Of a stretch of 36,100 bases of DNA, positions 1,968 through 24,081 are shown piece by piece; the first letter of the stretch is position 1, and each line of letters begins with the position of its first letter. Made by a program: the position numbers and the translations under genes. The DNA is from Planctomycetales bacterium (GTDB lineage: Bacteria; Planctomycetota; Phycisphaerae; SM23-33). The notes below the pieces were generated by a model. That model was given only the letters and a program-made list of their open reading frames with translations. It was not told the origin of the DNA and made no database searches. The stretch is from contig DAOWOP010000004.1 of assembly GCA_030642005.1 (NCBI GenBank), positions 1 to 36,100 of the forward strand. Direction: 5' to 3'.

Positions 1968-3977
1968 ATGTCTTTGGTGCGAAAAAGGATTTCCGCGAGC
2001 GGGATTCGACGTGCGGTTATCGCCGTTGCGGCGCTGGCGCTGGTCTGTTCTGTCGGGATGTCGGAGCAGTCCGGCCCTTCGCTTGAGCGACTCTACGAGG
2101 CGGCGCGAATGGCTTATACTTCCGGCGACGTTCAGACGCGTGAGGTTGCCGCCATGGCTGTTGTCGCGCGCGGCGCCGAGGCGGTGAAGTTCCTCGCGGC
2201 CCGGCTTGAACTCCAGGCTGAAAACGTTCACGATGCCGGCGAGGCCAAGGCTGGCGGCATCTTCGTTACGATTAACCTTCTGGGGCGGATGAACAGTTAC
2301 CCAGCCGCTCGGTCGGCGTTGATTAAACTCCAGGCCCATCCGGTCGCCGAAGTCGGCAAGTGGGCGAAGTTCGCCCTTTCGCGGACGCCGCAGACCCAAC
2401 CGGGCCGGCCGGTAAAAACGACCCGCCCGACGACAACTGAACCCGCGACAGTCCGCATTGAAGGCGACCGACTTATCACGCCCGACGGGTGGTTCGCCCG
2501 GCCGAAGGTTAAGCACCCGCCGCTGCCGGAGAAAATCACAAACGCCTTCATCATTCCGATCCGCGAGCCGATTACGCCCAAGACAACCAGGGCCATTCGG
2601 CGAAAGGCCCATGCCGCACGGAAGGAACACGCCCAGCTCATCATCTTTGACATGGACACCTTCGGCGGCGGGGTAGTCGCGGCTCTGGACATCTCCGAGA
2701 TAATCAAGAAGGACCTTCAGGACATCTACACCGTTTGTTTCGTCCACACGGATGCAATATCCGCCGGGGCCCTTATAGCGCTGGCGTGCGATGAGATAGT
2801 AATGACGCCGAGCGCTACGCTTGGCGACTGCGCCCCGATCGCCGTCGGAGGAAAACTGGAAGGCGTCCTGCGCGAGAAGGTCGAAAGCCCGCTCCGCAGC
2901 GAGTTCCGGGATTCGGCCCGGCGCAACGGCTATCCGATCGCGCTGGCGATGAGCATGGTCTCGTTCGACATTGAGGTCTGGAAGGTCCGCAACCGCATCA
3001 CCCGCGAACTGCAATATGTGCTGAAAAGAGAATGGCTCGGCAAGGTGGAAATCCCGCCGGGGCTGGCCACCGGGCCTTCCAAACCGACATCCGAGTGGGA
3101 ACTGCTTCAGGTCGTCGTCAGGGAAGGCGAACTGCTGACGATGAACACCTCCGAGGCGCTGAAGTACCGCTTTGCATCGCGCCGTCTCAAAGCCCCTGCC
3201 GCTGATCCTTATCTCAATCTCAAGAGCGCCTACAACATCACCGCCGGGCCGGTGGTTTTGAGCGACACCTGGTCGGAGCAACTGGTTGAGTTTCTCACCT
3301 CAGCGCCGGTGATGGCTTTTCTGTTCTTTGTGGGCCTGTTGTGCGCGTATGCAGAGGTTCACACTCCCGGCTTCGGCGGCGCCGGAGCGGCTGCGATCGT
3401 CTGCTTTGCGATAATCTTCGGCAGCCATTACCTTGTCGGCTTGGCGCAGTGGTGGGAGATAGCGCTGTTCTTTATCGGCGTGGCGCTGCTTGCGGTGGAG
3501 GTGTTTCTTATTCCCGGCTTCGGCGTCGCGGGCGTCGCGGGCTTGCTCTGCTGCGTCGCGGCGCTTCTGGCGATGATGGTGGACAACGCGCCGACGGAAT
3601 TTCCCTGGCCTGACACCGAAGGGGCGTGGGAGATGCTCAAGACGGGCGTATTGTGGATGATGGCGGCGTTTGTGGCCGCTACGGTTACTGCGGCGGCCCT
3701 CGCGCGGTTCCTGCCGAAGGTCCCGATCGCCGGACGGCTTGTGCTGGCTGCGCCGGAAGGCTCGCTGACAGCGCCGACCACGGAAGATGCGCCGATACTC
3801 GATGTCCGTCCAGGCCAGGTCGGAGAAGTTACGCAGACCTGCCGGCCTGTCGGAAAGGTCCGCATCGACGGGCGGCTTGTCGATGCCGTCGCGGACGGTG
3901 CCTTCATCGAGGCCGGCGCTGAAGTCGTCGTCCTCCGCAACGAAGGCAACCGGGTCGTGGTTGAGACAAAGGCGTAA
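1968..3977 (+). CDS. NfeD1b-type membrane-bound ClpP-class serine protease
   Basis: The protein has 669 aa from the ATG at 1968, which has CAGGAG 11 nt upstream and fits the promoter at 1899-1927. Residues 1-30 form a signal peptide/anchor. The ClpP-like protease domain includes DAISAGALIALACDEIVM with candidate catalytic Ser265 and, downstream, a Lys in REKVES. Several hydrophobic segments follow (roughly residues 435-590). The C-terminus is the NfeD OB-fold (VGKVRIDGRLVDAVADGAFIEAG). Long NfeD proteins of this type pair with flotillins in membrane microdomains and are thought to cleave membrane-protein fragments. The usual partners, short nfeD and floA, are downstream but are separated by an AT-rich restriction-modification insertion. 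Not to be confused with SppA, which lacks the NfeD tail. Confidence 0.9.
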   Translation: MSLVRKRISASGIRRAVIAVAALALVCSVGMSEQSGPSLERLYEAARMAYTSGDVQTREVAAMAVVARGAEAVKFLAARLELQAENVHDAGEAKAGGIFVTINLLGRMNSYPAARSALIKLQAHPVAEVGKWAKFALSRTPQTQPGRPVKTTRPTTTEPATVRIEGDRLITPDGWFARPKVKHPPLPEKITNAFIIPIREPITPKTTRAIRRKAHAARKEHAQLIIFDMDTFGGGVVAALDISEIIKKDLQDIYTVCFVHTDAISAGALIALACDEIVMTPSATLGDCAPIAVGGKLEGVLREKVESPLRSEFRDSARRNGYPIALAMSMVSFDIEVWKVRNRITRELQYVLKREWLGKVEIPPGLATGPSKPTSEWELLQVVVREGELLTMNTSEALKYRFASRRLKAPAADPYLNLKSAYNITAGPVVLSDTWSEQLVEFLTSAPVMAFLFFVGLLCAYAEVHTPGFGGAGAAAIVCFAIIFGSHYLVGLAQWWEIALFFIGVALLAVEVFLIPGFGVAGVAGLLCCVAALLAMMVDNAPTEFPWPDTEGAWEMLKTGVLWMMAAFVAATVTAAALARFLPKVPIAGRLVLAAPEGSLTAPTTEDAPILDVRPGQVGEVTQTCRPVGKVRIDGRLVDAVADGAFIEAGAEVVVLRNEGNRVVVETKA

Positions 3978-19265: not shown

Positions 19266-20957
19266 CTACCGTATCAGTCGCATCCTGCCGACGTTGGGCA
19301 CGAGCGGCAAGCGTTTGAGCATCGGCAGGCGGAAGCCTCCGGGCCAATACACGAAGAACGCCCTGCCGATCATGTTGTATCGCGGCACGGTCCCCAGTTC
19401 ATATCCAGGTCTGAGGCTCGGTGCGCCGTGTTCCCAGAGGCGCGAATCCAGAGACGCCGGCGAATTGTCGCCGAGAACGAAGAATTCGTCCAGGTCCGGC
19501 TTATTGCTGAATTTGCGCAGTACCATTGGGTTTCCGGTCGTTGCTCTTCCGGGCTGGCTGGCGTCGCCTCCGATGTCTGGGCAGGTATAGTACACATCCC
19601 GCATGAGTTTGACGTGCCGCAGTTCCGCCGGGCCTCCCTCGGCGAGTATCGCCACCGTCGGCGTCGGAACGCCTCTGGCGACGGCCTGGATGATCTTGTC
19701 GCGGTTGGCCGAATATTGGGCCTCGGTGCTGGTGAGAACCGCCTTGCCGTTCACCCACAGCGTTACGCGCCTTTCGACGTTCGTCAGCGCCACGTCATAA
19801 GCCCTGCCAATCGTCAGCGGGTTCAATCGGCCCGAAGCCCACGGCTGCTTGTCCCATTTGACGTTGCCGGCTTCGTCGGCGACGCCGTGTTCCAGCGTGC
19901 AACTACCGTCCATATCCACCCATGCGCGGAAGTGGTCCGCGAAACTGCTCAGCCGCAAACCCACGCGGATGTCGCTACTTTCGCGCGGCACAAACATAAA
20001 CGACAGTTTCAGGTCGCTGCAGACGTCCACTTTCGGGTTGTAACGTTTTCTGCCGGACCGGTTGGATTGATTGTAGGCATAGACGGGGCAGAATCGTCGT
20101 CGGTCGGTCTCGGTTTCGGAGGCGAATCGCAACTCCGACGGCGCCTTCGAGTCATTCGAGCCGTTGAATTTGAAGACCCGCCCGCCGTGGTCTCTGGTCC
20201 ATGCGCCTTGGCCGGCGGGGTCCCGCCAGAGTGATCGCCATTTCCGACCGGTCTTGGCCTTGTATATCGCCGGGTCGGGCTGATAATCACTATCGAGAAT
20301 CACCTGCCACATGACCTGCTGGGTCTTGGGCGACTTGCGGAGAATCCGCCAGGGACATTCCTTTTGGGCGCGAGGATGGCTGAAATCCTTCTCGTCGATG
20401 ATGCCGTTGCCATCGAAGTCCTTATCCTGCGCGTCGCGAACGAACACGTTGCCGTGGACGATCTCGATCATTTGTCCCGGCAGGCCGATGAGACGCTTGA
20501 TGTAATTCTGCTCGTTGTCCTGCGGGTTCTTGAAGACCACCACGTCCCAAGGCCTCGGCTCGGTGAAGCGGTAGAGGTACTTCAACACCAGTACGCGGTC
20601 CCCGCCGTAAGCGAACTGCTCTGTGAACCGATGCCGATAGCCGCAATTCGGACAAACCGGCAGCGCCCCGCCGGGCTTGCCTTTACGTCCGCTGGGCGGC
20701 AGGGGAATAGACAGATTTGGAGGCGGCGAACCAGGCTCGTGGGGAATGCCGTAGGCATAGTGATACCCGCAGGCAGGGCAATCGAACTGCCAGTGCTGAC
20801 CCATCAGGCGCGGCGCCATCGAGCCGGTGGGAATCACAAACGCCTCCAGCACAAACGCGCGCAGCACAAACGCAAGCACCACCGCTATCCAGATGCTCTC
20901 AACCGTCTCGCGGATCGATGCGGATTGTTCGCCGCTTTGATTGTCGCTGCGGGCCAT
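19266..20957 (-). CDS. lepB: signal peptidase I with large insert
   Basis: 563 aa from ATG at 20957 (AAGGAA 13 nt upstream), about twice the usual length. It removes signal peptides at the outer face of the cytoplasmic membrane. A membrane helix (SIWIAVVLAFVLRAFVLEAF) is followed by the catalytic Ser46 in IPTGSMAPRL and Lys154 in NYIKRLIGLPGQ. The late GDNSPASLDSRLW box completes the peptidase. Added parts: a Cys4 zinc-ribbon-like segment (CPACGY.. CPNCGYRHRF, residues 60-110); a perfect EF-hand/dockerin loop DFDGNGIIDEKD (180-191); and ~280 residues of beta-rich sequence resembling a LamG/concanavalin-type sandwich (FMFVPRESSDIRVGLRL, RRVTLWVNGKAVL) before the GDN box. Planctomycetes often have enlarged signal peptidases. 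Confidence 0.9.
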   Translation of the reverse strand: MARSDNQSGEQSASIRETVESIWIAVVLAFVLRAFVLEAFVIPTGSMAPRLMGQHWQFDCPACGYHYAYGIPHEPGSPPPNLSIPLPPSGRKGKPGGALPVCPNCGYRHRFTEQFAYGGDRVLVLKYLYRFTEPRPWDVVVFKNPQDNEQNYIKRLIGLPGQMIEIVHGNVFVRDAQDKDFDGNGIIDEKDFSHPRAQKECPWRILRKSPKTQQVMWQVILDSDYQPDPAIYKAKTGRKWRSLWRDPAGQGAWTRDHGGRVFKFNGSNDSKAPSELRFASETETDRRRFCPVYAYNQSNRSGRKRYNPKVDVCSDLKLSFMFVPRESSDIRVGLRLSSFADHFRAWVDMDGSCTLEHGVADEAGNVKWDKQPWASGRLNPLTIGRAYDVALTNVERRVTLWVNGKAVLTSTEAQYSANRDKIIQAVARGVPTPTVAILAEGGPAELRHVKLMRDVYYTCPDIGGDASQPGRATTGNPMVLRKFSNKPDLDEFFVLGDNSPASLDSRLWEHGAPSLRPGYELGTVPRYNMIGRAFFVYWPGGFRLPMLKRLPLVPNVGRMRLIR

Positions 20958-21199
20958 GGCTTCTGCACTTTCCTTCAAGGCTCAATACATTATCGGTTCA
21001 CGCGCGGTTGTGCAAGTAACCGAAAAACAGGGATTAGGGATTTAGGACTAGGGACTAGGAAAAACGGGAAGAAACAAAGCATGGACTTGGAAAAGAAATC
21101 CGCAATCCGGCTTCGCCAAAGGCTTCGCCGGGACAAGTCCGCAATCCGCAATCTGCAATGGCTTGACGCCGGCGCGCCGGTGTGATAATTCCATACCCT
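20958..21199. repeat. intergenic spacer with repeat-like sequence
   Basis: No gene. GATTAGGGATTTAGGACTAG followed by GGACTAGG (around 21031-21060) and CCGCAATCC..CCGCAATCC..GCAATCTGC words (21100-21160) look like degenerate direct repeats. GGACTTG (21084-21090 region) and CAAGTCC (21133-21139) form an inverted pair. No clear pyrE promoter was found. Confidence 0.4.
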
Positions 21200-21724: not shown

Positions 21725-21825
21725 AATGGGCCAAGGATTGGGTATTTCGCGCGGCACGGTAGATGTTGATTCCGTCTCGATGGACATTTATGATACGCTA
21801 AACGCATAGATGCCGTTCCGCACAC

Positions 21826-21855
21826 TTGACTGACACACTAGGAATAACCGATACT
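21826..21855 (+). promoter_or_regulatory. candidate promoter of the TIGR04255-like cassette
   Basis: TTGACT (21826-21831), 18 bases, GATACT (21850-21855), 27 nt before the ATG at 21882. Confidence 0.4.
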
Positions 21856-21881
21856 GATTTACAGGACCGATATACAGAACT

Positions 21882-22709
21882 ATGGAAACTGATGTAACAT
21901 TCAAGCACCCGCCAGTAGTAGAGACAGTTTTGGGCATCCAGTTCGAGCGACTGCCGGGGCTGGCAAACGCGCACTTGGGAGCATTTTGGCAGCAAAGAAA
22001 GTCAGAATGGCCGCAGATTGACGATGCACCCCCGCTGGAAGAGCAATTCGAGACATTCGGGAAACAGACAGGATGGCAGAAGGGCATTCACCTGAAAATA
22101 ACGCAGGCTCCCGCCGCACGGCTTCAGATGAGGAACGCGACGGGCGATCGGATGATCCAGCTGCAAAATTGCCGCTTGGACTACAACTGGATCGGTCAAC
22201 ATGGACAGAAATACCCAAGGTATAGTACAGTGCGCCCTGAGTTCGATAAGGTCCTGATTGCTTTCGAGGAGCTTGTTGCCAAGAACAATTTAGGGAATAT
22301 GGTTCCCAAACAATGGGAAGTTACCTATGTAAATCACATCCCCAAGGGTATGATTTGGAATGAGCCTGATGAGTGGGCGAACCTGTTCAACTTGTCTGGT
22401 TTGGTAGTTGTCCCTGATGGTCTGCGATTCGAAGGTTTCGGTGGACACTGGCATTTCGAGATTGAGCCGCAGCGGGGACGACTGCATGTGGGCATCCAAC
22501 ATGCCTTTGTCGGAGGCTCAGAAAAGAAAGAGGTCTTAGTGATGAATCTGACGGCCCGAGGGCCTATTGCTAAGAATCAGAATGCCATCACAGCCATTGA
22601 CGAGGGATTGAACCTGGGACACGATGTGATTGTAAAGTCATTCAGGGACCAGACCTCACAGCGGGCGCACGATTACTGGAACAGGGAGAACCACGATGCC
22701 GACATCTAG
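21882..22709 (+). CDS. TIGR04255-family-like protein, function unknown
   Basis: 275 aa, soluble, ATG at 21882 with weak Shine-Dalgarno. The N-terminus (FKHPPVVETVLGIQFERLPG) and the pattern MIQLQNCRLDYNWIG, followed by WEVTYVNHIPKG in the middle, agree with my recollection of the sporadically distributed TIGR04255 family. The C-terminus ends with TAIDEGLNLGHDVIVKSFRD, again family-like. No catalytic motif or membrane segment is visible. It overlaps the next gene by 14 nt and heads a three-gene unit. Base composition is lower than its neighbours (26 of 60 G+C on the line at 22261), suggesting acquisition. No biochemical role can be given. Confidence 0.65.
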   Translation: METDVTFKHPPVVETVLGIQFERLPGLANAHLGAFWQQRKSEWPQIDDAPPLEEQFETFGKQTGWQKGIHLKITQAPAARLQMRNATGDRMIQLQNCRLDYNWIGQHGQKYPRYSTVRPEFDKVLIAFEELVAKNNLGNMVPKQWEVTYVNHIPKGMIWNEPDEWANLFNLSGLVVVPDGLRFEGFGGHWHFEIEPQRGRLHVGIQHAFVGGSEKKEVLVMNLTARGPIAKNQNAITAIDEGLNLGHDVIVKSFRDQTSQRAHDYWNRENHDADI

Positions 22710-23112
22710 CGCTGCAGTTCTTTCCGGCGAACCTATGCCTGTTTTTGCTACGCCGAACGTTCGAGAATCTGAACTGTACGAAAAGAAACAAGGCGAGAAA
22801 AACAAAAAGGGCTGGGACAAGTTCATCTATGATACTTTGGTCGAATGGGGTAAAGACGTAACCGCCCTGGAGGATGAAGACTTTATTCCTCCGAACCCTG
22901 ATGTCATCTATCTGGCATGTAGAGTTGCAAGGAAGTGCCGGGACAAAGGATTTGTGCCGCCTACGAGAGTCGTTCCGGATGGAGAGGGAGGAATCTCTTT
23001 CGAATGGGTCGAGGAAGATATTTCTCGGTCTCTGAACATTTACGCCGACAAGTCCATTGAATTACTCACCTTTGACGATTGCCGCCTGTGTGATCGCCGT
23101 CGCCTGCCGTGA
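22696..23112 (+). CDS. small hypothetical protein, second gene of TIGR04255-like cassette
   Basis: 138 aa, ATG at 22696 inside the end of the preceding gene, with GGGAGAACC just upstream. It is soluble and highly charged: a Lys/Glu-rich start (YEKKQGEKNKKGWDKFIYD), an acidic middle (LEDEDFIPPNPDVIYLACRV) and a beta-strand-like C-terminal half (RVVPDGEGGISFEWVEED, ELLTFDDCRLCDRRR). The VPDGEGGISFEW stretch looks like a beta hairpin conserved in small proteins that accompany such cassettes, but I do not recognise a named family. The overlap with its neighbour implies coordinated production. Confidence 0.65.
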   Translation: MPTSSAAVLSGEPMPVFATPNVRESELYEKKQGEKNKKGWDKFIYDTLVEWGKDVTALEDEDFIPPNPDVIYLACRVARKCRDKGFVPPTRVVPDGEGGISFEWVEEDISRSLNIYADKSIELLTFDDCRLCDRRRLP

Positions 23113-23121
23113 GGTCTTGTC

Positions 23122-23523
23122 ATGGGCGACGGGTCAGAGCCTATAGAAAACGATGAATATCTCTATAGGCGTATTTTATTGCAGTATTATGATCCTAGCC
23201 AGGGATCTGAACCCAGCCCAAATGCGTTCCATCCGCGGGATTACGACAAGACAGAGATATCCGTTTTCAGGGCGAAGTATGTGACCCCAGAGCAGGTGGC
23301 GCAGAATGATCGCGGAAAACGCTACTACGTTGCCGTTCTGCGCGCCGGCGATCTCCGTGATAATGGAATAGAAGTCGTGCCCAGAATCGAAGGCCATGAA
23401 CAGGGACACGCAGAATTGCTGGATCTAAAATCCGAAAACCGGCGAACGGACGCTGTCGAAGAGGCACAGCAGCTTCTTGCTCGGAAACTCTGTCTGGAAG
23501 TACTGGGACCGTTCCCACGGTAA
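23122..23523 (+). CDS. small hypothetical protein, third gene of TIGR04255-like cassette
   Basis: 133 aa, ATG at 23122, 9 nt after the preceding stop, with GAGG upstream. The order of blocks is LYRRILLQYYD, then NAFHPRDYDKTEISVFRA, then YVTPEQVAQ, then YYVAVLRAGDLRDNGIEVVP and GHAELLDL. This resembles a common but uncharacterised type of small bacterial protein with a terminal His-Ala-(Glu) motif. No catalytic site is proven; the His-Ala-Glu could be one. It ends 12 bp before a convergent minus-strand gene. It is likely the last member of a three-gene operon. Confidence 0.65.
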   Translation: MGDGSEPIENDEYLYRRILLQYYDPSQGSEPSPNAFHPRDYDKTEISVFRAKYVTPEQVAQNDRGKRYYVAVLRAGDLRDNGIEVVPRIEGHEQGHAELLDLKSENRRTDAVEEAQQLLARKLCLEVLGPFPR

Positions 23524-23535
23524 GTCGGTCAGACT

Positions 23536-24081
23536 TCATAAAGGGGATGGAGCATTTGATTTCCCTTTGCCTTTCATCCACGGGCAGTCGTTTCGTTGGG
23601 GGCAGGTTCCGCAGCCGTGCTTTTTCGACGACATCGGCAGGATGATGAAGGCGTCAATCGCAAAGGCCACAAGCAGCACCAGCAGAATCCAGTCGAAGCG
23701 GCTGATTTCGATGATAATCCCGGCTATCGGCGGGATGAACCATAACGGCACAATTACCGGAATGTGCCGCTTGAATTTCTCGGCGAAGCGAGCGTAATCC
23801 CGGCGCTTTCGCAGTCTGGCTGAAATCAACCCGTAGCCGGAGGGACACGACCGCGCACCGTATCGACGGCAATAGGGGCACAGAAACAAAATTATCCACA
23901 GCGACCCGGTCAGTCCGTAGAGGACATAAAGCCCGGCACAAACCCATCCCCACAACGACGCGCCCAGCCCGGCTAGGAAAATCCCCGCACCCAATAAAAT
24001 CACAATTTTATACGGCAGATTGCGGAAAAGTTTGCCGGCAAGCGCGTATTCGCGTCGGCCTGTGGAGTTTTCGGTATTCAT
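23536..24081 (-). CDS. four-helix membrane protein with two Cys clusters
   Basis: 181 aa from ATG at 24081. Hydrophobic helices lie at ~25-45 (IVILLGAGIFLAGLGASLWG), 46-68, 108-127 (VIVPLWFIPPIAGIIIEI) and 128-148 (WILLVLLVAFAIDAFII). Between helices 2 and 3 is CPYCRRYGARSC, and after helix 4 is CGTCPQRNDCPW: each group has three cysteines suited to metal or Fe-S binding. Similar Cys-rich small membrane proteins occur in anaerobes, but no family name can be given. It is convergent with the TIGR04255-like cassette. Shine-Dalgarno is weak (GTGGA). Confidence 0.7.
   Translation of the reverse strand: MNTENSTGRREYALAGKLFRNLPYKIVILLGAGIFLAGLGASLWGWVCAGLYVLYGLTGSLWIILFLCPYCRRYGARSCPSGYGLISARLRKRRDYARFAEKFKRHIPVIVPLWFIPPIAGIIIEISRFDWILLVLLVAFAIDAFIILPMSSKKHGCGTCPQRNDCPWMKGKGKSNAPSPL

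Follow-up and report, generated by a model that had tools for sequence, protein, structure and literature searches.

A mobile three-gene cassette headed by a TIGR04255 family gene in a Planctomycetales bacterium, a putative tripartite toxin-antitoxin-type operon

In TAC systems, such as HigB1-HigA1-SecB-TA of M. tuberculosis, a constant component is combined with a varying toxin/antitoxin pair (HigBA, HicAB or MqsRA) (PMC5105189). In the phage-sensing form CmdTAC, an ADP-ribosyltransferase toxin is set free once the chaperone leaves the complex; the triad of CmdT is of the diphtheria type (HY-[E/D/Q]), and CmdC is homologous to SecB (PMC11618068). Panacea (DUF4065) consists of two-gene pairs in which PanA is itself the antitoxin, and this one family is associated with many unrelated toxins (PMC8832971). 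PDC-M32, a system with candidate status in PADLOC, was reported in a Sinorhizobium prophage (PMC12429752).

The three-gene cassette described here was compared with each of these, and TAC and CmdTAC are, by analogy, its closest working model. As in TAC, three co-oriented genes form one operon, and operons led by the family of the first gene, TIGR04255, likewise include a HicA-like toxin. The range of toxins is wider than in TAC (PIN, Fic, HEPN, zeta and ART-like), the toxin gene is last rather than first, and the constant component is TIGR04255, in which no similarity to SecB was found; because SecB similarity was looked for and not detected, membership in TAC is not claimed. With CmdTAC the cassette shares a toxin of ADP-ribosyltransferase type (predicted here) and two partner proteins in one operon, whereas its gene 3 shows R-S-H and resembles KptA/Tpt1, and its gene 1 belongs to TIGR04255. 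Like Panacea, TIGR04255 is a single family paired with many unrelated toxins, but it heads three-gene operons with a separate middle gene. Relatives of gene 2 match the C-terminal part of PDC-M32A and relatives of gene 3 match PDC-M32B. M32A, however, fuses an unrelated N-terminal domain to the gene 2 domain, an architecture seen in three loci (L066, L217 and L221), whereas the head of the cassette is a separate TIGR04255 gene and gene 2 stands alone; lacking the fused architecture, the cassette is not assigned to PDC-M32.

The locus and its insertion site

The window, which is the whole stretch of 36,100 nucleotides that was analysed, carries the three genes on the + strand between pyrE and a convergent right-hand gene. 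Gene 1 (21882-22709) encodes a 275-aa protein of the long subfamily of TIGR04255, proposed to be a chaperone or sensor partner. Gene 2 (22696-23112, 138 aa), the proposed antitoxin or adaptor, is a divergent member of a family with the motif 'NWDGYGxP...PxVVPTxxGGxQxEW', and gene 3 (23122-23523, 133 aa), the proposed toxin, has a predicted ADP-ribosyltransferase-like fold. The ORF coordinates bear out the close packing reported in the preliminary description, with a 14-bp overlap between genes 1 and 2 and a 9-bp gap between genes 2 and 3.

The three-gene segment is a recent insert. It spans 21725-23565 (1841 bp) and is missing from two genomes of the same genus, in which blastn of the junction placed pyrE and the right-hand gene 7-17 bp apart (G147, locus L159; G043, locus L161). 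In a further member of the genus (G290, locus L160), the same pyrE-side junction is occupied by a SAM-methyltransferase-like gene (680-1489, - strand); the junction may therefore be an integration spot with varying content. The AT-richer composition noted earlier is real and modest, the insert having 50.7% GC against 58.3% for the remainder, and 21 of 343 window segments of equal length have GC as low. Upstream of gene 1, two weak candidates for a sigma-70-like promoter were located on the + strand (21766-21794 and 21826-21855), each matching 9 of 12 consensus positions. A promoter belonging to the cassette itself is thus plausible on the strength of consensus matches, of which the region holds eight where 1.8 were expected from shuffles. 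When the home genome was searched, no TIGR04255 gene besides gene 1 was found. Elsewhere in the window, a 570-aa ORF on the - strand (19266-20978) looks by eye like a type I signal peptidase with a long insertion in mid-protein.

Conservation of the trio and exchange of its parts

An alignment of gene 1 alone was used to retrieve 81 loci, comprising 80 genome loci and one IMG/VR locus. Gene 2 lay directly downstream of gene 1 in 78 of these and gene 3 followed in 73, with order unchanged and spacing recurring, which is more than chance; the three genes form a real unit. Among the eight loci without gene 3, three reach contig ends, one (L138) has a remote gene 3 relative and one (L107) has a PIN toxin in its place; gene 3 was not detected in L109, L115 and L135. 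In the class survey of 150 genomes, gene 2 and gene 3 were each found in seven genomes, six of them common to both, and every copy of either sits directly behind a gene 1 relative. In the reverse direction, gene 3 was searched for across 294 genomes of the phylum; of the 28 distinct loci obtained, 25 have gene 2 upstream by profile. The independent occurrence that was named at the outset as the refuting outcome was therefore not seen. The three proteins diverge in step, their pairwise distances being correlated (Mantel r 0.75-0.83, p=0.001), although shared species history contributes to this value. Two irregular copies were noticed: at L122, a transposase-like gene (2167-3429) separates genes 2 and 3 of an otherwise intact cassette, and at L225 (G161:C54), genes 1 and 3 are each split into pieces, which suggests a decaying cassette or sequencing errors.

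The trio is spread over about a dozen phyla; the record titles of the gene 1 loci name Planctomycetota, Acidobacteria, Nitrospira, Chloroflexi, Gemmatimonadales, Verrucomicrobiales, Proteobacteria, Myxococcales, Latescibacteria, NC10, Zixibacteria and Acidimicrobiia. The same trio adjoins mobF on a Mycobacterium plasmid. The cassette is a horizontally moved operon, as follows from the empty sites and the alternative occupant in genomes of the same genus and from the plasmid copy. A phage origin, offered previously as one option, found little support: INPHARED gave no match to a gene 1 relative or a gene 3 relative, and the cassette on the single IMG/VR contig agrees in gene lengths and spacing with the bacterial locus L105, so that this contig may be host DNA.

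The main new point is toxin swapping behind TIGR04255. TIGR04255 genes elsewhere lead the same layout, in which a small middle gene is followed by a third gene belonging to a known type of toxin: PIN at L107 (Pfam, 1.5e-15), HEPN at L029 (6.7e-10), a HicA-like protein at L034 (3.3e-5, below its cut-off) and, on a Vibrio plasmid, a zeta toxin (3e-12). Other operons of this family terminate in a metallo-beta-lactamase or DUF7689 protein, and additional PIN and Fic genes were seen by eye at loci of short-type TIGR04255. TIGR04255 is widespread, being present in 46 of the 150 genomes sampled in the class. In these 46 genomes, co-oriented genes up to 1.2 kb downstream counted as adjacent, and PIN genes (among the approximately 150 best PIN matches listed) were found there five times against 0.03 expected and Fic genes seven times against 0.02, the expectation assuming random placement and independent loci. 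Adjacency of PIN and Fic to TIGR04255 is far above chance. HEPN is given as an example and not as a statistic, because just one adjacent pair occurred among the profile matches.

Further proteins occupy the toxin place. A protein of about 200 aa with the motif '(T/S)(Q/H)xCDL/CDI' recurs there by eye at six loci (L002, L005, L006, L014, L018 and L109); the member at L109 had no Pfam match, and this 'TQxCDL' family is possibly an undescribed effector family. DUF7689 proteins stand in the same place at L003 and L051/L023 (Pfam, 2e-42 at L051), which suggests a toxin role for them.

The head of the operon is exchanged as well. Where the window-type gene 1 is absent, the gene 2-gene 3 pair follows short-type TIGR04255 at L210, L218, L216 and L224, and at L213 it stands behind a DUF3467-like protein (E=0.0028, below the cut-off); this assignment of heads leaves out L206, L208, L211, L214 and L219. 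The N-terminal domain of PDC-M32A gave no signal against TIGR04255 in single-sequence hhalign, an insensitive comparison here, in which even a known TIGR04255 control reached just 7%.

Predicted properties of the three proteins

Gene 1 matches NCBIfam TIGR04255 with E=2.1e-12 and 47.4 bits over model positions 2-252 of 252, above the curated cut-off of 30 bits, which agrees with its earlier designation as TIGR04255-like. It is thus a full-length member of a family that carries no assigned function, and TIGR04255 was not mentioned in the open-access literature searched, a scope that takes in few subscription papers. In the same literature, PDC-M32 is mentioned by one paper. The AlphaFold2 model (pLDDT 91.8) had no confident structure match in the fold search of the PDB, and no PADLOC model matches gene 1. 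SecB homology was considered and found no support, with no PDB sequence match and SecB absent among the 50 best fold matches. The chaperone- or sensor-like role proposed for gene 1 is accordingly an analogy, TIGR04255 being not detectably SecB-like, and the modelled fold would be compatible with a DNA-binding, chaperone or sensor role alike.

For gene 2, NCBIfam, Pfam and PHROGs gave nothing significant. Its match to PADLOC PDC-M32A is weak (E=0.0012) and covers only profile positions 303-343 of 375, in the C-terminal part, where its relatives match at best with 2.7e-11. The antitoxin or adaptor role is proposed from position and pairing. At L107 (2162-3028), gene 2 is extended at its C-terminus by about 80 aa, and the VapC-type PIN toxin comes after it in place of gene 3. 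A VapB-like character of this extension, as in the antitoxins that precede VapC, was considered and set aside, with no support from Pfam, the PDB, plasmids or 20 regions upstream of PIN genes.

Gene 3 was equally without a significant hit in these three libraries, and it matches PDC-M32B weakly (E=0.025), its relatives reaching 2.5e-6. An ADP-ribosyltransferase-like shape is confidently predicted from its AlphaFold2 model, which was built from 71 sequences and has a pLDDT of 94.4. Among 350,542 PDB chains, the 17 best matches were all KptA/Tpt1 tRNA 2'-phosphotransferases (best E 0.011, prob 0.95), and NarE, PARP15, AvrPphF, a PltA-type subunit and DarT followed lower down among unrelated chains; all of these named proteins have the ADP-ribosyltransferase fold. 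The best match in the viral library was also a tRNA 2'-phosphotransferase. The matches are individually modest (TM 0.4-0.5, E>0.01), and the assignment of the predicted model to this fold is to be read with that in mind. Homology to KptA at the sequence level found no support, profile comparison giving nothing; the claim is kept at the level of fold because the hhalign probability was only 0.3.

S47 and H96 never vary across the 71 sequences, and R16 and F36 hardly do. All four are kept down to about 20% identity, and remote gene 3 relatives at L010 and L138 retain the R-F-S-H pattern. R16, S47 and H96 lie on strands 13-19, 46-50 and 96-99 of the model, which correspond to those bearing the catalytic residues in ADP-ribosyltransferases when mapped by secondary structure. 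Gene 3 is probably an NAD+-dependent modifier of RNA, DNA or protein. His appears to take the third catalytic position, where the canonical triads (R-S-E, H-Y-E) have Glu, and for this reason the activity could differ or be lost.

Explanation of the cassette and its significance

The explanation favoured here, with somewhat better than even confidence, is that the cassette is a horizontally moved tripartite operon of toxin-antitoxin type with gene 3 as toxin, gene 2 as antitoxin or adaptor and gene 1 as accessory. Since the toxin is last in the sister operons, gene 3 is likely to be the toxin, gene 2 its partner and gene 1 the exchangeable control. Of the options in the preliminary description (toxin-antitoxin-like, phage-related or defence module), the first is the best supported, on the basis of effector swapping and the gene 3 fold. 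In the mechanism envisaged, gene 3 would be a small ADP-ribosyltransferase-like toxin with predicted use of NAD+, and gene 2 would be its cognate antitoxin or adaptor. Gene 1 would bind gene 2 and hold the gene 2/gene 3 pair inactive; titration of gene 1, perhaps by a phage or stress product, would then lead to loss of gene 2 and release of the toxin. A broader proposal, judged slightly short of evenly balanced, is that TIGR04255 is an unrecognised, SecB-unrelated chaperone- or sensor-like partner of many toxin pairs in general (PIN, Fic, HEPN, HicA, zeta and ART-like), and that the toxins with the ADP-ribosyltransferase fold include a new R-S-H lineage, represented by gene 3.

Phage defence is possible, and the same genes could form an anti-phage abortive infection system with gene 1 as phage sensor, gene 2 as transducer and gene 3 as effector, free of addiction or stabilisation. 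This reading is plausible and clearly less probable than the first. The patchy occurrence of the cassette and the changing occupancy of its chromosomal insertion spot suit it, as do the parallel with CmdTAC, whose ADP-ribosyltransferase toxin is freed upon infection (PMC11618068), and the PDC-M32A/B defence candidates to which genes 2 and 3 are related (PMC12429752); PDC-M32 is itself, however, a candidate, and no defence genes were noticed beside the cassette in the stretch of the window that was read. It is improbable that gene 3 is an inactive ADP-ribosyltransferase-like binder and that toxic or regulatory activity resides elsewhere in the trio. His at the position of the canonical Glu, invariant in 71 sequences, and the want of a sequence-level match to an active family would fit such a protein, but R16, F36, S47 and H96 are conserved as expected of an active site, and the same place in sister operons is held by enzymes (PIN, Fic and zeta). 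It is hardly credible that the cassette is a small, ordinary Planctomycetes operon for metabolism or RNA repair, built for instance around a KptA-like 2'-phosphotransferase and its accessory proteins, for although KptA/Tpt1 is the closest fold, gene 3 has neither the KptA N-terminal domain nor a sequence match to KptA, and extreme divergence, presence in only 7 of 150 class genomes, site polymorphism and partner swapping are ill-suited to housekeeping.

For the toxin-antitoxin-type reading, the wider meaning lies in the head gene. Because its relatives precede many unrelated toxins, TIGR04255 may be a general control component of toxin or defence operons that has so far escaped notice. The trio in the window contributes two families absent from Pfam, one of them with a predicted ADP-ribosyltransferase-like fold. 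Should TIGR04255 prove to be the invariable component of tripartite toxin operons, the second gene downstream of it would become a toxin candidate, and the family would offer a handle on many undescribed toxins and possibly defence systems. SecB-controlled TAC would then be a single instance of a more general arrangement, with interchangeable toxin-antitoxin pairs under the control of a separate protein.
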